Positions 1,633-27,872 of a stretch of DNA of 64,000 nt are shown here, in pieces. Source of the stretch: Rhizomucor pusillus (Eukaryota > Mucoromycota > Mucoromycetes > Mucorales > Lichtheimiaceae); the NCBI GenBank assembly GCA_900175165.2, contig FWWN02000656.1, positions 62,001 through 126,000 of the forward strand. Reading direction: 5' to 3'. The notes under the pieces are model-generated. The model was given only the letters and a program-made list of their open reading frames with translations. It searched no databases and was not told the DNA's origin. The position numbers and the translations under genes were made by a program. Each line of letters begins with the position of its first letter. Positions within the stretch are counted from its first letter, which is position 1.

Positions 1633-4600
1633 TTACACAGATTCTTCAAAGAACTTACCATGCTCAGCGGCTAGCTGGTATAGATCCATAGCTTTTGAGT
1701 GATCAACAACGACAACGTCCCATCCATGCGCATAATATTCGGCTAGATAAAACACAGCCTCTGCATAGTCGAGTTCATCTTGCTCATCGAGTCCTTCTTC
1801 GTCCAGTAGGTCTTGATGATGCGTTACAACACGCCCGAACCATTCAAAAGCTTTAGTTCGGTCCTTCTCAACGCCTAGTCCAGAATGGAAGCACTTTGCA
1901 ACATGGATAAACACTTTAGGTTCGCCACCGTCTTGTGTTGCCAACTTTAGCAAACTTGCAGCTGCTTCTGTTGGACGCGCGGGTATATCACCCCAACCAT
2001 AAAGCTGATATAGAGAGACCATTGTCATCGCGGTCTTCTTTTGGTCAAAAGGAGCGTGGTCGTATGCAGCTTTGAAGAGTCCGTATGCATTGCGCATTTC
2101 TTGTCGTTGTTGGTGTAATAACCTTGCGAGTGCGAGTTCTGCGAGCCACCAGCCGCCTTGACCAGTCTTGTGCCGGTCTTGTCTCTGTCCAAGCTTTACT
2201 GCCACTTCATACCATTCTCTGGCAAGATCCAGGTTAGGTGGCACATGAATACCGTGCTCGTGGTAGATTCCAATAAATAACGTGGCAGTCTTGTCACCTT
2301 CCTGTGCAGCGCGACAAAATAGGTCGTATGCCTTTTCGAAATCTTGAAATACTACGCCTGTCTTGCCGGAATGATAGAGTTTGCCGAGTTCACGCTGGGA
2401 ATCGCTTGAGCCCATCTGCGCAGAGCGTTCAAACCAGTCAATTGCTTCTGCAGCGCTTTTGTTGTTGTCATCATCCATTAGCAGTTGCGCAAGCTCAAAC
2501 ATGGCATCCTTGTCATCTTGTTCAGCAGCTTGTCGGAAATGATGCATTGCAGCGGTTGGGTCAGGTAAAAGGGCCATAGTCGAGGGATTTGTGCGCTCGT
2601 CACGAATGCCATACAAGTAGTACAATCCAATGTAATAATGGGCACGCGGATGGCTCCTTGATTCGCAAGCGAATTTATACCATTGCAACGCTTCCATATC
2701 CTTGTGCAGAGTTGGATCTTGGCTCGGTACTCGACCTTGGGCATGCATTTGACCAATACGGAACATGGCTTCAGCATCTTGCGTAGCTTCAGCAGACTTG
2801 AGATACCATTCGAGAGCGCGACGATCGTCCTGAGGAGTACCGAGACCCAGTTCATGGCATTGACCCAAAGAGTTGTAAGCATCAACGCAGTTATCATTCT
2901 GTGCGCATTCGACAAGTTCACGGTATCCTGCTTCGGGATCAGCTGGAAGACCTGCCAGCCCAGCAATCTGGTACCGTGCCTTCATAACTCGAGATAATAA
3001 ATGTCCATGGCTTGCTGCACGTTCGTAGAACTCGAGCGCCGCTGCAAACTGCTCCTGGGCATGCCAGGATTGCGCAGCTAGAAACATTGCTTCCACATGA
3101 CCCATCGCAGCTGCTTGCTGGAAACAGCGTGTAGCTAATTCTTGCTCTTCTTGCTGCTTTTGCATGATTATCTCGGCATTGTCGTGTTCATCAGAAGGAG
3201 GGGTCTCGGTGTCGTTATCGTCGATGCTCATCATGACGGTAGCGGCCAAGTCTGATTCCGGTGGTGGTGGTGCTGCTGCTATCATCGGTTTACTAGTAAC
3301 CGCACCAGCTTGATGAAGTTGGCCGAGCAAGACTAAAGACTCGGCATCTCCTGATCGAACAGCTTCCGCTAAAAGCTCCATGGCATGTTCAAACTTGGTA
3401 CTCTTTTGTTGGCTTTGCTCGGATTGAGTTTGGAGTAGCAGGCTGGCGAGTGCACGCATCGAAGGAGCATGGCCTAGAGCAATGGACTTGTGCCACCAAG
3501 CAATTGCAACGTCTTCGTCGCCGTTTTCTAAAGCCATCTGGCCCAGTGCCCAGCTACTTGCCGCATACTTTGCAGCTGATCGTGTGAACCAAACGACCGC
3601 TTCGCCCAGATTGATATCAACATTTAATAAACCTCGCCAGTAGGCCATGCCTATACATAAAGGATCAGTTATCCATGCCGAGATGTTATGCGGTATATGC
3701 ACATTTGTTTCTTACCCATTTTGTGTTGAGCTTCAGGGTGACCTTGCTCAGCGCTTGTCTGGTAGTAGAACAGTGCCTTAGAATCATCCCTATCTACACC
3801 GAGTCCTTGTTCATAAGCCGTAGCGAGTTTGATCATCGCTTCAAGATCCTTGCAAACTTCTGCAGCTCGTTGGTACCACAAGACTGCTTGTACCAGGTCA
3901 ATTTCAATGCCGTTACCGAGTCGATAACTTTCACCTATGTAAATGACCCATAATGTCAGATTTTAGATCGGCAGATATCAGGTATCCTGCAATATATATA
4001 CCAAGCCAGTAAAACGACTGATCGAATGCGTCTTTTTCAGCTAAATTGCGGAGCATTTCAAACGCTTCCTGCTTTGTCATTGATCCAGTATCGATATTGA
4101 CAGACTGAGAAACAGTATCATCCTGAGCATGTGGGTGCAGCACTGTGATGTAACCAAGTACATAGCGTGCGACCATAAACCGAGAGGTTTTGCCGATGCG
4201 TGTTTCTGTGAGACTCGCGTCTCTAGCTGCAATGAGATATTGCGTGAATGCGTCCTGGAACTGATTCTGGGAATGGTAGACTTGCGCCGCGGCAAAAGGT
4301 GCCCTATATAATATAAACGTAAGCATATGTATGCAGCATTTAGTCCAGTGCTGTATGTCAAATAACTTACACCGAAGCTCCGAGTTTGGCAGCAGCGTGG
4401 TACAGCTCTAGAGCTTTTGCAATGCTTGTTTCAACGGCTAGTCCATTCTGGTAATAGCTTCCTAGCAGCAAGGTCGCTCGTGCATCATTTTGGTCAGCCG
4501 CCAGTTGCAGTAACTGGAAAGCTGTCTGGTAATCTTGCGCCACTCCAAAGCCAGCATCGTAAAGCATTGCTAGCTCTCTCTGTGCTACGGCATCGCCCAA

Positions 4601-7316
4601 AGAAGCCGCCTTTTGATACCAATGAATCATGAGACTGCTGTATTCATGTTGATTTCGTGAGTTCAAAGCATTTTTGGGTTCGTTGCCTACGGCAGCAATG
4701 CGGCAAAGCATGGCGAGAGATGTCATGGCAGCGATAACACCCTTCTTGGCAGCTTTTTCGAAACAAATACGAGCTCGGTTCAAATCAACTGGCGTACCGG
4801 CGATGCCTTTTGCGTAATATAGACCAAGACTATACAGAGCAACTTTGTGACCCTTGCGTGCTGCTTTCTCGTACCAAGGCATAGCACCTTTTCGGTCTCG
4901 TGGGATACCTTGACCGTTGGATAACATCAATGCGACCTGTTTTTGGACAATTGGACACATGACGTGAGTTCCTACTATTTTGGTCTACTGAGAACACACG
5001 CTTTGTTTGTTACCTGGAACTCGGCATCAACGTCACCTGTTTGTGCGGCGATCATGTAATGCTTGAATGCCATCTTTAGATCACGTGGACAGACGCCATC
5101 GAGTCCTTCTTCGTAGCAGGCGGCTAGCCAGTAGTTTGCCCCACCATCCTGCTCGCCTTTAGCGAGTGATGCAAGGATATTGAATGCCTTGTAGGAATCT
5201 TTCTTGACTCCAGCCCACCCATGTAAATAATAGCGTGCAATCATAAGCAAAGCTTTGCTGGTAGCTACTTGGGACGCTTCCTCGGTCGAAACTGCTGCCT
5301 TCTGGAACCAATCGAAAGCATCGCGATATCTATCCATGCTGAACAATAGCTGTCCGAGAATGAGCTGCGCTGCGGCTTGGAAGGGGCTTGTTATGCGAGC
5401 GGCTTTTTGGTAATGCTCCATGGCCGTTTCTTGACTCGCTTGGACACCACCGCGTCCATGTTCGTAACATGATCCGACTAGACACATTGCATGTACATCG
5501 CCCTGAAGGGCAGCTCTTCGGAACCACAAGAGAGCTGTCTTTTCATCCTTTTTCCCAAAAAGGCCCTGAGCAAACATGAGACCAATGATGCGCTGAGCAG
5601 GAGCGAAGCCAGCCTTGGCTGATCGATGAAGAAAACGACCTGCTTCCTTGTAGTCTTGTTGCAAACCGAGGCTACCGAGACGGTAGTGTAATCCAACAAC
5701 ATATTGCGCGACTGCATCGTCGGCGGTAATGGCAGCAGTCTTGTAATAATATAGAGCCTGTTCGTGATCTGCATCTACCCCTTGGCTGTGCTCGTACATA
5801 AGACCGAGCTTCAGGAGTGCGCGCGCGTTGTTCTACAATAGAAAATTACGAGTGAGACCAAGCTTACGCCACAACTGTTACACGGCGGTTATGTACCACT
5901 TGAGCGGCGTGCTCGAGCCATCGTTTGCCTTGAGTGATATCGTTCTTGTGATCTACAAGCAGAATGCCTAGTGCTGCTTGGGCATCTGCGAATCCTTGTT
6001 GGGCGGCTGACAGCAAATATTGCTCGGCAATGTCAATATCCCGTTGGACTACAATGCCTTGTTCGTAGTATATGCCTGCGATATATTGACCATACCTAAT
6101 TTGAAGAAAGTAAATATGTAAGGGTCTATACGTGAGAGAGATATTAAAATTGTCACTTTGAACTTTACTTGTTTCCATTTTGGGCGCTTTTTTGGAACCA
6201 TTCTAGCGCTGTAGCTGCATCTTCGGCAATACCTTCTCCTTTGAAGATAAGTTCTCCGAGGCGGTACTGAGCGAGGCCAGCTACGTATTGAGCTTCTTTG
6301 TGTTGCACGACAAAACCGGGATCTAGCTCTGCAGCAGCCTTGAACCAGTGAGCTGCCTCGACATTGTTGGATGCATGGTAGAAATATTCAGCTAGCGGAT
6401 AAAACGATTCCCAGCAGCCGAGCTCGGCCAAGTTTCTGAGTTGCGAAAACCCTTTATCGGTATCGAGAACCGTTCCCCATCCCTCCAGGAGGCACCGAGC
6501 AGACCAAACGAGGGCGCATGGATCGTTTGTTTCTTGACCCCAGAGAGTTATGGTATGAAACACTTTAGATTGGTCATCAGATGTCCTTGCAGATACGATA
6601 GCTTGTCGCAATATTCTGTGGGAATCACTGCGGCTCTCTTTGAGCTGCTGCAGGAGATCTTGGGAATCCGTAGAGCGCAAATCTTGCTCTTTTTGTTCTT
6701 CCTCCAGCTCCTGCAGCCCATATTCTTGAGTGTGAGCTATAGCTAATTTGTCTTCAACGCAGACAGATGGCCAGTCTTGGCAAAACTGCGATCGCCGGGA
6801 TACAGTCGATGAAAATGCCGTAACCGTCGTAATCGTGCTGGTAAGATCCAATTGAGAAAACATACCGCCAGACCACATCATACTAGCGGTACTGCTGCTA
6901 CCGGCGCTTGAGGAGAGCCGGGCATTGCTATCATTTGTTTCGCAAGAAAGGATAGAGCGTGTTCGCCGAGAAGAGGTTACTGGTTGCCACGGAGGCGAGG
7001 GTGAGCGGGATGCGTGCCTGTGTGGCCTGTGCACGAACGGTCGACTTTGCCTTGATGAGACCTTGTTGTCTTCTTCGGTGGCACTTTGGAGCACAGATGG
7101 TGATGGTGATGGTGATGGTGTTGAATTTGTTGATATCGCTGTTTCTGGTGATTGTGCTGTATCTGGCATTGCTTCGGACGGTACAACGATCGACTCACGA
7201 CTAAACCGTCGCGAGAACCGTTTCAGACTCTTGATAGATCCAGGTCGGCTACCCCGACCTTTTGTCGTGGACGGTATGCTTCTTTCCGACGTCGGCCGGC
7301 TATGATGACTACCCAT
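1633..7316 (-). CDS. giant Sel1-repeat (HCP-like) scaffold protein
   Basis: This is a multi-exon gene of roughly 1,700-1,800 codons built from many Sel1-like repeats (36-44 residue helical hairpins). Repeat cores such as AQYVVGLHYRLG, AMCLVGSCYEHG and ATLLLGSYYQNG recur from about residue 300 to the C-terminus. The first 250 residues are Ser/Pro/Arg-rich and look disordered. The chosen start at 7316 gives MGSHHS, a possible N-myristoylation site (Gly2, Ser6). Clear joins include NGN|KYGQYIAG near 6178/6096 and HAAQ|NNARALL near 5898/5833; further introns lie near 4975, 4375, 3930 and 3700. In fungi, Sel1-repeat proteins act as adaptors, for example the chitin synthase activator Chs4/Skt5 and ERAD Hrd3. 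Nothing here proves either role, since there is no signal peptide or C-terminal prenyl motif (it ends KFFEESV). Function unassigned; family certain. Confidence 0.88.
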
Positions 7317-7808
7317 GCCCAACCGTTCAAATCAATCGAAAGGAGAACAGAACACTACAGGCGGGAAAAAGGGTGAAGTGGAGTATAAATACGTGTGCGC
7401 AAGGAAATAAATAAGAAAAAAGAGGATGTCGTGTATCTCTGCACTCCACAAACTCTGTCCCCCAATAACAAGAAAATAGTCTGGCAGATGAAATGCATGT
7501 CCAAAAATGGATATCGAAAAACATGGGATGGCTGTTCCTGGTGGGAAATCGACTTGTTCAGTGCAACCCGCCCCTCTGAGTTTGGCCATCCAATCATGCG
7601 ATGGCGAAGCATGCGGTGAGCATCATTTCATCCATTAGACGGGATTATGCCAGAGTGGCAGCACGCAGGATGCCAACGATGAAGCGTTTCTACAGGAACG
7701 GCAAACGATGATATTTCACGCGGCCGTGCACACAAAAAGCGCACCATGTCTTGTTTGTTTGTTTTTATTGAAGGCGACGTCGCACATGGCGCCCGCAATT
7801 TTTTCCCT

Positions 7809-16380: not shown

Positions 16381-17403
16381 CTAATAGTAAGCCCAGACCT
16401 TGAAATCTTTGAAAAAGGTATGTTCTTCCTTTGGTGGGGCCCAGGAGTCATCGGAGCCACCAAAAAATGTGTGGAATGCTATCAATGAAGAAGAGTAAGG
16501 AAGTATATGAGCAACATGCCTTATATACATGTGTGTATGTAAAGACAGTCATGCTTACCAAGACCAGTAAGTCGGCCCGTCTTCTTGGACAAAAATGCCA
16601 ATTGCTTCTCGTTGTAAACTTGCTTTCCATTAACAAGCACCTCGGCTTGTCCATTTTGCTGACCAGGAGTGTTAAGCTTGACTCGTTGCTTGAGCGTAAC
16701 CCATTCACCAGTCTTAAAAGTCCAAGTTCCTCTTCCGAGACTGTATCCATAGTTAGGATTGCAAATGTTGCCTTCCTCATCGCAAAGACCGTCGCGCTGC
16801 TTGCTTTCCGGCATGTAAGCGTAGATTTCACCAGCACCTTCTTTGCGCCACATGAATCTATTTTGGGGTAGAATTGTTCAGTCAGATGAAAAGGGAAAAA
16901 GGTAGTTGTAAAAACTCGATTACTTACCTAGTAGAAAAGCAGCTACTGGCATCTGCACCGCCAGAGCAACCTTCATGTCCACCGTACAATCCTGGCAGTT
17001 TTCCTCCTTTTACAAAGTCGAAACCCTTTGGAAAGAAAAGCTTATATTCAAGGACTACCAGCTTTGCCTCCTCTCGAAGCTCTATAGGTTGCGCGTAGAA
17101 ACCAATGCCACCTTGAGGAGTGTTAGCGGGATTGCTGCTTCCTTTGGGATACTCGACGCGAAGGACCATATCAGAAGAACCAGAAGGATCCTTTACAATA
17201 TCGTAGTTGCCGCCGTCTTTCGGCCATGCCCAGCCGCTTGATTTCGGAATACCCCATTCGCTTGCCCAAGATCCACCTTTGGCGGCCTTGTCATTCTTGT
17301 ACTTGCTCCAGTTATCAAAGCGCCATGTTTCTACGTGCTGGGGTGCCGACAGTACGCTGTGAATACAGAAGGCAAGGAGGAGGAGTAGTGTAATGGGTTG
17401 CAT
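16381..17403 (-). CDS. secreted polysaccharide lyase family 14-like enzyme
   Basis: Three exons encode about 290 residues. The first 19 residues (MQPITLLLLLAFCIHSVLSA) form a classical secretion signal. The mature part matches the fungal PL14 (alginate/glucuronan lyase-like) fold, with WASEWGIPKSSGWAWPKDGG, the VEYPKGS block, ELFFPKGFDFVKGGKLPGLYGG-type strands and a C-terminal FGGSDDSWAPPKE...FKDFKVWAY. Cysteines in HEGCSGGADASSC and RDGLCDEEGNICNPN probably form disulphides. PL14 enzymes cleave uronate polymers by beta-elimination. In this lineage, whose wall contains glucuronic-acid polymers, either wall remodelling or external feeding is plausible (inference). Introns lie at about 16927-16860 and near 16555-16490. 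Confidence 0.85.
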
Positions 17404-19017: not shown

Positions 19018-21652
19018 CTATCGACTTCTCCCATAAGTAACAATATTTATACCGTAGGTATCGAGAGAAAACAGACCGAAGCAACCATGACATATCACTT
19101 GTGGAATCTTTGCTCGTCTATAAGGTCTAGGTTTCTTCACCATTTTGAATGTCTCCAAGGCTTGCGCGCAATCAGGACAGAGACTCGATGTTTTGAATTC
19201 ATCGATTAAATAAACTTGGAACCGTTTGTTGCGTAACATCCTTAATAGACCAATGCCCCGGGCAGGTTCATGGTACTTGTTCATAGTCGAGCTGCGTGCT
19301 GACCAGTTTCTAATGATTAAGACAGGATCTTCTCCAAATTGGACCCTTATGGCTTTCGCTAGCTTGTCGTCGGCTTGTTTCTTGTATAAACAGGAACGAA
19401 AACGTAGCTTCCGGTATATCAAGGATTAATAGTGTCGTGACATTATGGCGCTGACCTCGTATCTAGTCTTCATGTAGAGCAGAAACTTTGGAATAAACAC
19501 CGTTGCAGCAGGATGCTTCGACAATTTCGCTTCGCACGCTTTGACTTCGTTCGTTTTGATACGTTGTCTTAGCTTCTTGTACTGTGTAGCTTTTGTATTG
19601 ATTGCTTTTGTGTTCCTTGGATAGCGACACTAAGCGGTGCCTCAGTGGTGCTGTCCTGATGCATACAATATAGCAGATTTCTACGTCCGGGATCGATGAA
19701 GACTGTCCTTGGCTTTATATTTTCCAGAGTCGTCTTGTCCAAATCGTGAATGTATGTGAAATCACTCTTCGTATCAGCTTTCGTTTTCTTTGGCTTGCAA
19801 CCAAATCCGGAATAGAAATTTTGTTTTAGAATCGATACACCAAAGCCGTCTGTGAAAATAGTTCCTTTGAAGGCCATATACTTGTCAGCGCCTTGATTTT
19901 GGAGAGGCTTCAATTAGAAGTTGACAACTTGCTTCCACAGGTCTGAATCAAAGTCGATATTAGTTGGTTTTTTCAACATCTGAGTCGCCAGAATTTTGGT
20001 ATCAATTTGCATATGCGCTGGGATCCAGGACGTTCGTAACGGTATACACTGGAAAGTCTTGATTTCATAGTCTTCGCAGAACTTGGCTATCATTACATAA
20101 GCGAGCGCATGATTCCCAGGTCTTGACTTCGAGTCATAATATACGGAATCCTCGTCAAACTCGTATGCGGCAGGGTAGGCAGAAAACAATGCATCATGAA
20201 ATTCCAACAACAACAACAACTGGCTTTGCTTTTCTGATGGCAGCGATCCTCGTGTGTTACCGGTAATAAAGGCCTGTTCACATCGTGCGCAGGCTTGGTG
20301 ACTTGCTTGTATATAGCTTCCTTGATCTCTTGGCTGGATTTGCCTTGTTCGGTCATCTCTTTAGTGATACGCGCTCGATTATCCTTGACTTTGAGCAGCG
20401 AATTGATTACGTGACGTAATCGGTTACCGAAGCAATTTTTGATGCTGTTCAAGTAGGCGGTGCAAATGCTTGAACCTTTCATAACGCGCAATCTGCTGTG
20501 AATTCGTAAGCGCTTTTCGATTGAATGCAGAATGTTTCAGGTGATTTTTGATGTGCCGATCGATCAGCCCACGATAACGTGTTGTACCATCCGTTCGCGA
20601 AGACTTCACTGTACGCAGTGTCAAAGAGAGCCAGACTTCAGCGAAGAAATCCGTTTCCAGCCAGGTCTCCATGGGAAATCGCTCTCCAGGTTCAGTAGCA
20701 TGTATCTCCGATAGGAAGATGTAGCGAGCAAGCGCGTACGCGTGTGTAGTGATTTCGTTTACAGTGATGACGAGCTTCTCCAACGGACTTCGATATCGCG
20801 CTTCCCACGAAACGCCATTGATAGATGACTTGACAGTCATTACCCGTTTCCTGCGCTTTGTGGGTGTCTCAGTGGTCTTTCGGCGCTTGCTACTTGATTT
20901 GCTACTTGATTTGCNNNNNNNNNNNNNNNNNNNNNNNNNNNNNNNNNNNNNNNNNNNNNNNNNNNNNNNNNNNNNNNNNNNNNNNNNNNNNNNNNNNNNN
21001 NNNNNNNNNNNNNNNNNNNNNNNNNNNNNNNNNNNNNNNNNNNNNNNNNNNNNNNNNNNNNNNNNNNNNNNNNNNNNNNNNNNNNNNNNNNNNNNNNNNN
21101 NNNNNNNNNNNNNNNNNNNNNNNNNNNNNNNNNNNNNNNNNNNNNNNNNNNNNNNNNNNNNNNNNNNNNNNNNNNNNNNNNNNNNNNNNNNNNNNNNNNN
21201 NNNNNNNNNNNNNNNNNNNNNNNNNNNNNNNNNNNNNNNNNNNNNNNNNNNNNNNNNNNNNNNNNNNNNNNNNNNNNNNNNNNNNNNNNNNNNNNNNNNN
21301 NNTCAGTGCAAAATCTGGAAAGAAATCTGTATGGCTTACCCGCAATGGCATCTTTGTTTTTGCTTCGCTCAATGGTTCAAGATTCACTCGTACCTGCTGT
21401 AGCAATTGTAAATAACTGATGGGAGAAGTTCCAGTATCATAAGTTTGAACTTCGCCTGTTTGCTTTTCAAGTTTCTTTAGAGCTCGTGTCCGGGGTACGA
21501 TTGGGGTCTGGAAGTCATCTTCGCCGTCTTCAGCTAAAAAGCGTGATATATGACCAGGAAGGGCAGATACTGTCAGCGATTTATATGAATCCAATATGAG
21601 TCTGTGAAATAATCATACCTGTTACTGCATCGCTTCCTTTCGTACTGGACAT
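19018..21652 (-). pseudogene. decayed Fanzor (eukaryotic TnpB-like RNA-guided nuclease) gene
   Basis: Blocks in successive minus frames follow the order of a Fanzor protein. First come a Ser/Lys-rich N-terminus with a bipartite basic signal (KRRK...KRRKR, about 20890-20850), then helical blocks (VSWEARYRSPLEKLVITVNE) and NSIKNCFGNRLRHVIN. Next are AMQIDTK-like and FKGTIFTDGFGVSILK motifs, RuvC-I FIDPGRRNLLYCMH (Asp codon 19692-19694) and IIRNWSARSSTMNKY. The end has IDEFKTSSLCPDC with the candidate rearranged catalytic Glu (19198-19200), CHGC and SLDTYGINIV. In-frame TAA stops at about 19914 and 19432, and frame changes near 21610, 20460, 20225 and 19625, break it. The N-run 20915-21302 removes more. 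Fanzors are nucleases guided by a transposon-end RNA; this copy cannot make one intact. Confidence 0.8.
20915..21302. other. assembly gap (388 N)
   Basis: Unknown bases lie inside the Fanzor relic. The left edge is a tandem 12-base repeat (tacttgatttgc twice, 20891-20914), so a collapsed minisatellite is the likely cause of the gap. Confidence 0.95.
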
Positions 21653-22214
21653 ATGGAAACAGGGAAAAGAAAGGGATTGCGTGGCAAATTCGACTACAAA
21701 AGCCGTTTAAATCCACGCTTAGTTGCGACATTCAAATAGCGATGTTATTTTGAGGCATCCTTTTGCTACATGCTTTCTTGAAGCCGATGCCTCTTATCAT
21801 GAAAAGTTGTCAAGTGCTACAAATTATTATCCAACGAATTCTAAATCTAATGTCAGTCATTTAAAACTTTAAAAAATGCTATATTTCTTCCCTTAAGAAG
21901 ATTTGCTGCTATATATCTTCCCTCATATCTCTCAGAGGATCTACATCACAGAAAGATTTATCTACATCGTTGTTTGGCCTTGAATCCGATCATCATAACC
22001 GTAAATTGAACGGGGAAAGTCAGTGCTACCGTACAGGACATGAGTGCCCTTCGTCCCTTTCATTTACGCATACTGTCTAATCTACTTGAGCTCCAGCTCG
22101 AAATACGTACGGTCGCCTCTTGTAACACAGCACCGTCGAATTGCGGTTTATTCAGACCTGCGCTCCCATGAAGCATTGGTGAGAGATATAAGTTGGATGT
22201 CTCCTTTCTTTCTT

Positions 22215-24074: not shown

Positions 24075-26268
24075 AGAGTCTGTGTTTAGAGATATAAGAA
24101 TATTATTTAATGCGGATTTCGCTGAAAAGCTTTTCATTACGGGAAACAGGCCTAGCGATCCAAGTGCAGAGAGCGTAGCGATCGCTTAAAGCACTTGTAT
24201 AGAAGAATTGGCAAAGTTAAATTACAAAGACGGCAATACAATCATTTTTTTCAGGAGCAAGTAAGATGCACAGGAAAGAAATAAAGTAAGAAGGAAGGAT
24301 ATTGAAGAAACAAAGACTTTGATGAACTGTTTGTATTAAACTGAAGAATCATACTGCATATTACTTAATGCAAAAAGCAATCCCGGAATTCAACGGGGGA
24401 CCTCGGCCGCATCTAAGTTTTAGTAATGAATACTCTTGCCATACATCGGTGCATATGGAAAGGAGCAAAGCAGGATTTACACCCAAAGGCCGCCTGTGTG
24501 GAAGCTACTCCAGTTAGCGTAAAGTGATGCTGCTGGGCTAAAAAGCCCAAGTGGTTAGAACTGAGTATTCGATATTGGGCGTTGGATCTTGAAGCAACTC
24601 ACCGTGGATAATAAGCAAGGGTAATGTTAAAGCAAAACTGTAATAAGCAAATGCACCAGGATCAGGACAGATGCTACTTCTGGGACAGCTGAATGAAGTC
24701 CTCTGGGTGCCGGTAATCCCAGTAAGTAAGTATAACAAGCTTACCGGGGTGCAACGAGAAACGAAACAGAGCGAAAGTACAGCGTGATTATATGCTCTCA
24801 CGTAATATAGTTTCTGTGGTGTACAGTGCTCATTATATCTGAAGACCGTCTGCAAAGTTTCTATCACACGCTGGCATGGAGCTTATCGGTATAAAGCCAT
24901 ACTGCAAGCCTGATCAGAGCCTTCTCTATAGAAATACTCTCAGCACGCTTATGCATTCAAATTAACAGCGTCGAATTATTTAGTTCTACAAGGAGGCTTT
25001 TGATAACAGTGCGCATAGAAGATACTTCAGACGGGTAGTATACAGTGACAACCTTTAAATATTCATATTTATCCTACCAGTCAAGAGAAAGAATGTTATA
25101 ATGCCTATCATGCATTGATGGTGTTGTACGTTGACCAAAGATACAGCAACAGAAGTTGAAAGAGAGAGGAAATGAAATAACTGTGAGACTCTTGTCAGGT
25201 TCTTCATCAGGTCACCACGCCTGTATATTTCCTTCAGATCGGAGATGATGTTATAGGTCTGTTTTATTTTGCTCTTTGTCTTTTACAACCTCAGATACCA
25301 CATAATAGAAGCAAGCAGCACAAATGAAAAAGGAAATGAAAGCCGCTCGAGCCTCTTTCCAGCCGCATTGAGAACATTTATGAGCAGCAGTAGGTCAAAG
25401 TTTACTATTGATGTATGCTATCGTTGCGCTGAAGTTAATCTTTGCCAGTGGCGGGAACAACGAGATAGATCCGTCAAAAATACAACATGAACCTCCTTGA
25501 GATAATTGTTAAAAGGGACAAGTCAGTCTTGTGAGATAGGGTATACCTTTGTAATGATCGATTTCTACAACACTTATCTTATTATATTCTATTGTAACTT
25601 TTAGATGACGAAGTCAATGGACCAGTTACACTTCTTGAAATACTTTAAAATATATAAATGACTCTATATACTGATACGACTGCCCAAGATAATTTTTTTA
25701 TGTCAAAAACAGAACCAGCGCTTGGTACCGAGCCAGACAGATGGGAAAGATGAAACTGCCAGCGACTGCAAGACTCTTTACTGTGTCGACTCTACCGAAA
25801 TCACAATGCATATGTATGCGAATGTCTGTACCAATTACTTGTGCACAATAGCTATTTCCCCTTCCGCGTGAGCTGCATCAGGTATATCTCTTTTGCGAAT
25901 CCAAACAATTTGCTCTTGACTTTCTTCTTGATGTGTCTGTCCACAGAATAAGATTGAATCCTGACAAAGTTATACATGATAAATCGTCTCGTTTGAGACG
26001 TTGGTCCTCTCGTATCTTTGAAGCATTTTTCCATCAACTATTCCAAGACGACGGAAGGGATCTCATCAACGTGTTCTAGAATGTCTTTCACTCAGGATCT
26101 GCGGGCAACCACTCTTTCTAGGCTTCTCCAAGAACCTGTCAGGATCTTGCATATATACCGTTTGGAAATATTTCGAGGATGGTGGGAAACAGACATTCTG
26201 CGTAAATATATTTCATTGTCACACATAGAGATTATGCAGCATTGATGTGTAAGCTCGTCGGACAAGAA

Positions 26269-26275
26269 TGACTCA
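26269..26275. promoter_or_regulatory. Gcn4/CPC1-type site upstream of CPA1
   Basis: TGACTCA is a perfect copy of the bZIP consensus recognised by Gcn4/CPC1, the general amino-acid control factors. It lies about 160 bases upstream of the leader uORF and 330 bases upstream of the CPA1 ATG, a normal promoter distance. Function is inferred from the motif and the target gene. Confidence 0.55.
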
Positions 26276-26432
26276 CGCAGTGTCACTTGGCGCATTTCAA
26301 AAAGGGGAAGTCGGCCGCACGTTGCTCCTTTCTTTCGTTTATAATACTTCTTTTTACTGAAAGCGCAACAGCAACAACTATTTACTCTTGTTGTTCCTGC
26401 TATCGACAAGAAACCGTAGTCGTACTTGCTTT

Positions 26433-26601
26433 ATGTACATCCACGCTTTTGAAAAGTGCTCCGCCGATTACATCTGTGACCAAAGTAAGTCGTCATAAAC
26501 TGATAAAACATATACTGAAAGAACTTAAACTGAAGCCTGGTGGAAAATGCTAATCTTTCTCCACTTTTATGACAGTCTGGAAATCCTCGGGAAGTTTCTA
26601 A
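26433..26601 (+). CDS. arginine attenuator peptide uORF (spliced)
   Basis: Two short exons, 26433-26484 and 26576-26601, join across a consensus intron (gtaagt...tttatgacag, 91 bases, phase 1). They give a 25-codon peptide that ends DYICDQIWKSSGSF. Yeast CPA1 and Neurospora arg-2 carry uORFs of 25 and 24 codons with the core DY(I/L)SDH(I/L)W. Asp, Tyr, the second Asp, Trp and the following Lys-x-Ser coincide here. That peptide stalls ribosomes at its own stop when arginine is high and lowers CPA1 translation and mRNA level. Without splicing the frame ends at 26498 as DYICDQSKSS and lacks the essential Trp, so splicing decides whether the sensor exists. The stop is three bases before the CPA1 ATG. 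Confidence 0.85.
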
Positions 26602-26604
26602 ATA

Positions 26605-27872
26605 ATGAGCGTGATAACGAATGCTATACGTCAGACATCCTTGAAAGCGTCAATCAGGCTGAAAACTGGTCAAATTTTCCAAGGCATCTCGTTCGGCGCG
26701 CATACGAACTGCTTTGGCGAAGCCGTTTTCACAACATCGCTTGTCGGCTATCCAGAATCCATGACCGATCCCTCGTACAAGGGGCAAATACTTGTATTTA
26801 CGCAGCCTCTTATTGGTAACTTATACCTAAACTTTCCATCCATCGAAGCGATGCTAAGACTAAGGAATATATATCGGTAGGAAACTACGGCGTGCCATCA
26901 CAGGCCAAAGATGAGTTTGGACTCTTAAAATATTTTGAATCAGACAGGATTCAAGTCTCGGGAATCGTTGTCAATGATTACGCTGCGCAATACTCTCATT
27001 GGACAGCTGTAGAGTCTCTCGGTGACTGGTGCAAGCGCCACAGCGTGCCGGCGATCTCAGGAGTCGATACGCGCGCCATCGTGCAGCTGCTTCGAGACCA
27101 GGGATCAACGCTTGCCCAACTCGTTGCAGATGACGACGCCGCAACTTTGCCCAACGGCGGCAATGGTGTGATTTTCCCTGATATAAATGCCAAAAGCTTG
27201 GTTGCCGAGGTCTCGACCAAAGAACCCATTTATTACCGAGGCACAAGGAAACACAATGGTGATAATCCAAAGATCATGCTCGTCGACTGTGGAGTCAAGC
27301 AGAATATAATTCGATGCCTTGTCAGCCGCGGGGCAGATGTGCTCGTTTTGCCGCATGATTATGACTTTAACCAGATAGCTGCACAGTACGACGGCTTGTT
27401 CATTTCCAATGGGCCAGGAAGTCCGGAGAAATGCACCGCTACCATCCAGCATCTTCGCAAGGCGATCGATACATTCAATAAACCGATATTCGGTATCTGC
27501 ATGGGCAACCTGCTGCTAGGAATGGCGGCCGGCATGAACGTCTACAAGTTGCCATTTGGCAACCGCGGCCACAATCAACCCGCCTTGCACGTCGAATCAG
27601 GAAAATGCATGATCACGTCTCAGAACCATGGATATGCTTTGGACGACCGGGTGATGCCTGCAGGCTGGAAGAAGCTCTTTGTAAATGCAAACGACCGCTC
27701 AAACGAAGGTATTCGCCACAAGACGCTTCCAATTTTTTCGGTCCAGTTCCATCCAGAGGCCAAAGGCGGACCCCAGGACACGAAATATCTTTTTGAAGAG
27801 TTCATAGATCTCGTCCGAAATGAAAAGGCAAAGCGATTACCACGACAGACCAACACAGCCGTTGCCATGTGA
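26605..27872 (+). CDS. CPA1: arginine-specific carbamoyl-phosphate synthase, small (glutaminase) subunit
   Basis: Exons 26605-26815 and 26881-27872 join as [12 protein letters not shown], giving 400 residues. The protein hydrolyses glutamine and passes ammonia to the large subunit to make carbamoyl phosphate for arginine synthesis. The N-terminal half has the CarA domain ([51 protein letters not shown]). The C-terminal half is a class I glutamine amidotransferase with [26 protein letters not shown], nucleophile Cys in GICMGN and the His-Glu pair in [13 protein letters not shown]. It is a separate gene, not fused to a synthetase, as in the fungal arginine pathway. A short N-terminus ([14 protein letters not shown]) may be a mitochondrial presequence. 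Control is suggested by the attenuator uORF and the Gcn4-type site. Confidence 0.95.

Follow-up and report, generated by a model that had tools for sequence, protein, structure and literature searches.

A probable arginine attenuator peptide, split by an intron, upstream of CPA1 in a Mucorales fungus

Does the leader of CPA1 in an early-diverging fungus encode an arginine attenuator peptide (AAP), and does it do so across an intron? The question is raised by a small upstream open reading frame (uORF) in a 64-kb window of Rhizomucor pusillus DNA (the window is the whole stretch of 64,000 nucleotides that was analysed). When window positions 26433-26484 are joined to 26576-26601 by a predicted splice, the product reads MYIHAFEKCSADYICDQIWKSSGSF*, and the uORF lies directly 5' of a free-standing CPA1 gene. 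Exon 1 (26433..26484, plus strand) encodes MYIHAFEKCSADYICDQ and contributes the first base of the I18 codon, and exon 2 (26576..26601, plus strand) supplies the remainder of I18, W19 KSSGSF and the stop codon TAA (26599-26601). After predicted splicing the uORF has 25 codons, within the AAP range of 24-25. The original prediction had placed the ATG at 26433, the GT donor at 26485 and the end of the AG acceptor at 26575 in a 25-codon frame, and all of these coordinates were correct. The start codon stands in the context GCTTTATGT, with U at -3, and the uORF stop is separated from the CPA1 ATG (26605) by a gap of 3 nt.

Splicing is predicted here from sequence signals, and transcription is presumed to start upstream of 26433. 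The predicted 91-nt intron (26485..26575, plus strand) falls within codon 18; its donor reads GTAAGT, its branch-like site TGCTAAT and its acceptor ACAG. TGCTAA was present in three of the four introns compared from this genome (counted by eye), and the uORF intron looks like an ordinary one. Because the intron divides codon 18 (Ile), exon 1 supplies the codons for D12, Y13 and D16, and that for W19 is in exon 2. Read through without splicing, the uORF gives MYIHAFEKCSADYICDQSKSS and ends at 26498 before reaching the Trp, as had been predicted.

We compared the spliced peptide with the AAPs of yeast and Neurospora, using reference peptides identical to database entries P0121 and P0122 (a structure of the Neurospora AAP is available as PDB 2xl1). 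M1, D12, Y13, D16 and W19 were invariant in the three-way alignment. Thus, the expected coincidence of the core Asp, Tyr, Asp and Trp was borne out, and these residues stand at the same numbers as in the Neurospora AAP. Overall identity of the spliced peptide was 38% to the yeast AAP and 25% to the Neurospora AAP. When the 49-residue frame, aligned to two known AAPs, was used to search proteins, seven were recovered, every one of them an AAP-type peptide and every one bearing a name from Ascomycota. All seven carry DYISDHIW or DYLSDHLW after a Gln, followed by five residues past the Trp. The Rhizomucor core reads ADYICDQIW against QDY[IL]SDH[IL]W, so the full database core is not matched: A11 for Q, C15 for S and Q17 for H, within the core or next to it, set it apart from all seven peptides, at positions that are not known to be required, and six residues instead of five follow the Trp.

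These departures might mean that the uORF descends from an AAP that has decayed or become arginine-blind, and that it is now an ordinary uORF merely lowering CPA1 translation. The three replacements and the extra residue past the Trp would fit such a history, as would the 3-nt gap to CPA1 and a Pfam score that falls below threshold (see below). However, D12, Y13, D16 and W19 have been kept across an intron, at the Neurospora numbers, and a decaying peptide is not expected to retain both reading frame and core. We therefore regard decay as unlikely, and favour a peptide that is still of AAP type.

Profile searches point the same way, with modest scores. When the spliced peptide was run through hmmscan with 24,736 Pfam models, a sole family matched, Leader_CPA1 (PF08252; E 0.033, 14.0 bits), and the match was in register, pairing peptide residues 10-22 with profile positions 10-22. 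No family among the same 24,736 models matched the unspliced peptide, and the reversed spliced peptide had no Pfam match; a rotated peptide that retained the core again matched Leader_CPA1. The score of 14.0 bits lies below the curated Pfam cut-off of 18.5 bits, a threshold that the spliced peptide does not reach, and in the same hmmscan the known AAPs scored 58.8 (yeast) and 56.0 (Neurospora) against this model. An E-value of 0.033 is weak by itself because unrelated models reach similar values: a zinc-finger model unrelated to the Neurospora AAP matches it at E 0.037, and when the 49-residue open frame that encloses the uORF is the query, the unrelated Cmc1 (E 0.078) comes out slightly ahead of Leader_CPA1 (E 0.08). 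The Pfam case rests on the expected family being matched at the expected place and in register. A six-frame search of the genome with the Leader_CPA1 profile found nothing, which is the expected outcome for a split ORF and adds no support.

How easily could chance produce such a peptide, that is, a random uORF joined to a suitable ending by a fortuitous intron? A match becomes likelier when splice sites can be chosen freely. The leader (26200-26610) nevertheless offers just 12 candidate small ORFs, counting unspliced and one-intron forms, of which three are one-intron versions from the ATG at 26433. Among 4000 dinucleotide-preserving shuffles of this leader, none yielded DYxxDxxW near the end of a small ORF, unspliced or with one intron, and the only Pfam family matched is the one expected for a CPA1 leader. 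When the same small-ORF scan was run over both strands of the whole window, it found the uORF and a single further place, a minus-strand frame in which DYFTDSYW occurs in two forms. The core motif does recur elsewhere, in one unrelated ATG-started ORF on another contig. That ORF has 47 codons, has no Pfam match and does not precede any CPS gene found. A chance origin of the Rhizomucor uORF seems extremely improbable.

This recurrence emerged when we searched the 24.45-Mb genome for the unspliced core pattern D-Y-[FLIMV]-x-D-x-[FLIMV]-W, which occurs at three places. Each was considered as a second AAP and rejected: the place on C30 lacks an ATG-started short ORF across the core, and the one on C32 lies in an open frame with no Met ahead of the core. 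The third (C144:59947-59970, minus strand) is the ATG-started 47-codon ORF, which begins MIIYKYFDTNSEDYISDLLW... and carries DYISDLLW at residues 13-20, which are also the core positions in the yeast AAP. It gave no Pfam match at E 10, lies away from every CPS locus found in the genome, with no CPS gene found beside it, and is followed about 1 kb downstream on the same strand by a frame that looks like ribosomal protein S26. Its DYISDLLW is probably a chance occurrence. Because this ORF carries the motif too, the core without its location is insufficient as proof.

Similar frames unrelated to CPA1, with DYFTDSYW or DYFTDSFW, were seen at 21573-21731 of the window (minus strand), beside a masked stretch, and at C32:86296-86319 (minus strand); they are probably part of a repeat. 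Other features of the minus strand of the window include a long ORF run at 1633-7331, in which the ORF tested (1636-3711) is rich in Sel1 repeats, part of a protein of the polysaccharide lyase 14 family at 16924-17403, and ORF pieces at 19018-20360. One of these pieces has a C-terminal CPDC...CHGC pattern, which to us recalls TnpB/Fanzor-type proteins; the pieces had no Pfam match at E 0.01.

We wondered whether the gene downstream is the arginine-type CPS subunit that an AAP would be expected to precede. CPA1 begins 3 nt past the uORF stop with exon 1 (26605..26815, plus strand), continues after a 65-nt intron (26816..26880), whose junction lies 214 nt past the uORF stop, and ends with exon 2 (26881..27872); it encodes a CPSase small chain and a class I glutamine amidotransferase (Pfam PF00988 and PF00117). 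Three loci in the genome carry the small-subunit domain PF00988, namely the window CPA1 and one locus each on contigs C106 and C173. In the latter two, the small-chain domain is followed on the same strand, after 2.0-2.2 kb, by a large-subunit domain. A further large-subunit domain is found on C271, where PF00988 found nothing. Thus, of the CPS small subunits found in the genome, that of the window alone is free-standing. Because the C106 and C173 loci look CAD-type, and judging from its relatives, the window CPA1 is presumably arginine-specific. The two CAD-type loci (C106:89714-92594 and C173:9879-12642) are a pair of diverged loci within one genome, 45-53% identical to the window CPA1 over the matched parts.

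The other CPS loci offered no second copy of the device. In the 1.5-kb regions that precede the two CAD-type loci, no small ORF had D[YF]xxDxxW (0 of 213 and 0 of 126 candidates), and none with DYxxDxxW was present in the 1.6-kb stretch before and at the first large-subunit frame of C271. Position -3 is U at the uORF start but A at the starts of CPA1 and both CAD-type genes. Further upstream, TGACTCA at 26269..26275 (plus strand), 157 nt before the uORF ATG, is one of two exact sites in the window (about 11 were expected from shuffles) and matches a Gcn4/CPC1-type core. Each CAD-type locus likewise has one TGACTCA or TGAGTCA in the 1.5 kb before it, and the C271 stretch has one too. Since the CAD-type upstream regions hold similar sites, TGACTCA is not specific to CPA1; the site at 26269 hints at general amino-acid control.

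The organism was placed by its own genes. Among the best 120 of 7004 CPA1 relatives, the two nearest by identity are 99% identical over 82% of the query and 79% identical over 79%. Of the relatives with a name, those of Mucorales rank highest (Apophysomyces and Zychaea, 74%), with Umbelopsis at 72%; many early-diverging fungal CPA1 proteins are included. A tree of the window CPA1 and 46 relatives chosen from these 120 groups it with the two nearest relatives, beside Dichotomocladium, Zychaea, Fennellomyces and Phascolomyces (support 99/94), inside Mucorales. The top named matches of a helicase from the same window are also from Mucorales, and the placement rests on the CPA1 tree together with the top of the helicase match list. 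Thus, the AAP-type peptide does belong to an early-diverging fungus outside the Dikarya, as had been proposed.

The search was also extended beyond this genome. An AAP fused to CPA1 by misannotation was sought among the relatives, and the motif was in none of the best 120 of 7004. Viral contigs gave no match to the AAP pattern and no CPA1 loci. A prokaryote contig collection gave 23 matches to the AAP core pattern; these look like chance, because tblastn of the stretches fetched found no CPA1 homologue in them.

Could splicing itself be a control point? The original prediction had proposed that it acts as a second switch over arginine control, the cell altering intron retention, perhaps with arginine or stress. 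Because W19 sits in exon 2, splicing would be needed to make the sensor at all, and an unspliced transcript cannot do so. However, a retained intron would add two AUGs, at 26547 (A at -3) and 26569. The first of these, present in the retained-intron form only, stands in a better context than the uORF AUG and opens an out-of-frame ORF across the CPA1 start (26547..26815, plus strand, at least to the end of CPA1 exon 1). Intron retention should therefore lower CPA1. It offers no route to arginine-free CPA1 expression, since the sensor would be lost but CPA1 depressed as well: the retained form should silence CPA1, not free it or render it arginine-blind. The intron ends are consensus-like, and we rejected a special RNA structure in the intron because its fold is not unusual (z -0.35). 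On these grounds we dropped splicing as an arginine switch from the main reading and hold it to be quite improbable. Of the earlier interpretation, this much is supported: the leader of an arginine-type CPA1 in a Mucorales fungus contains an AAP-type peptide whose coding sequence is interrupted by an intron. The second switch is not supported, as the analysis gave no sign of regulated splicing.

Taken together, these results suggest that an intron-split AAP uORF controls CPA1 in a Mucorales fungus, a reading to which we give a probability of about 0.8. Very probably such a uORF would work like the AAP of Dikarya, although for the Rhizomucor peptide we infer arginine-dependent stalling solely from residue identity. 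High arginine has been described as causing a stall at the uORF stop, and low arginine as permitting leaky scanning (PMC11550727). The course of events that we propose for Rhizomucor builds on what can be read directly in the DNA: the intron signals, the 25-codon peptide with its core in register, the weak uORF start, the 3-nt gap and the junction 214 nt downstream. After splicing, some scanning ribosomes would initiate at the weak AUG at 26433 and others would leak past it to CPA1; leaky scanning is favoured by the U at -3 of the uORF AUG, against A for CPA1. Reinitiation is unlikely across a 3-nt gap, so CPA1 would be fed by leakage. At high arginine, the nascent peptide and arginine would block termination at 26599-26601, and the ribosome held at the uORF stop would, judging from footprint size, cover the CPA1 AUG and halt further scanning. 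Use of the uORF should also favour decay of the mRNA, because the CPA1 intron junction lies 214 nt past the uORF stop: with a junction well 3' of the stop codon used, the transcript would be prone to nonsense-mediated decay. The yeast and Neurospora CPA1 orthologues are decay substrates (PMC7049704). At low arginine, termination would be prompt and leaky scanning would supply CPA1.

A more far-reaching scenario is tentative, and we think it rather more doubtful than probable. The sensor would predate the split between Mucoromycota and Dikarya; in Mucorales it would have become splicing-dependent, the stalled ribosome would occlude the CPA1 start and not only block scanning upstream, and intron retention would be an arginine-independent off state.

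What would an AAP in Rhizomucor mean? No AAP was described in a fungus outside the Dikarya in the titles and abstract openings among the literature matches listed (Hood 2007 lies outside this scope). Where attenuator peptides and Rhizopus occur in one paper, Rhizopus is named in connection with a tRNA synthetase duplication. Yeasts and moulds are known to have the device; its apparent presence here suggests that it may predate both. If the reading is true, a nascent-peptide metabolite sensor is present beyond the Dikarya and may go back to the ancestor of terrestrial fungi, and its wider weight depends on sharing by other early-diverging fungi. AAPs may be more widely distributed than is known, because searches that read leaders unspliced, such as the six-frame search above, would miss intron-split peptides. 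The natural variant, with A11, C15, Q17 and an extra C-terminal residue, is a ready test of the residues needed for the arginine response, and the 3-nt gap makes this leader a clean example for studying whether a stalled ribosome occludes a start codon.

How does the Rhizomucor uORF compare with known systems? One likeness is the uORF of Toxoplasma ApiAT1, which is arginine-responsive and has some similarity to AAPs, including the aspartate that is conserved and critical for AAP function (PMC8370653). It differs in that it controls an arginine transporter in an apicomplexan, and for it similarity is stated and descent is not claimed (PMC8370653). Within the fungi, the CPA1 homologue of Cryptococcus (Basidiomycota, Dikarya) has a conserved AAP uORF with strong ribosome occupancy and is itself increased in a upf1 mutant (PMC7049704); the likeness to an AAP uORF on a CPA1 homologue is drawn here from that description only. 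The closest comparison is with the AAPs of Ascomycota (Neurospora arg-2 and the yeast CPA1 leader; PF08252). Like these, the Rhizomucor uORF falls within the range of 24-25 codons and precedes the small subunit of a CPS that is arginine-specific in Ascomycota and presumably so here, and it shares with the Neurospora AAP a D-Y-x-x-D-x-x-W core at residues 12-19, under the same numbering. It differs from them by A11, C15, Q17, the extra residue after the Trp and a Pfam score of 14.0 against 18.5. The intron in codon 18 and the 3-nt gap to CPA1 are Rhizomucor features, read here in Rhizomucor alone. Because the Pfam threshold is missed and the layout differs, we count the Rhizomucor uORF as a variant of the AAP.
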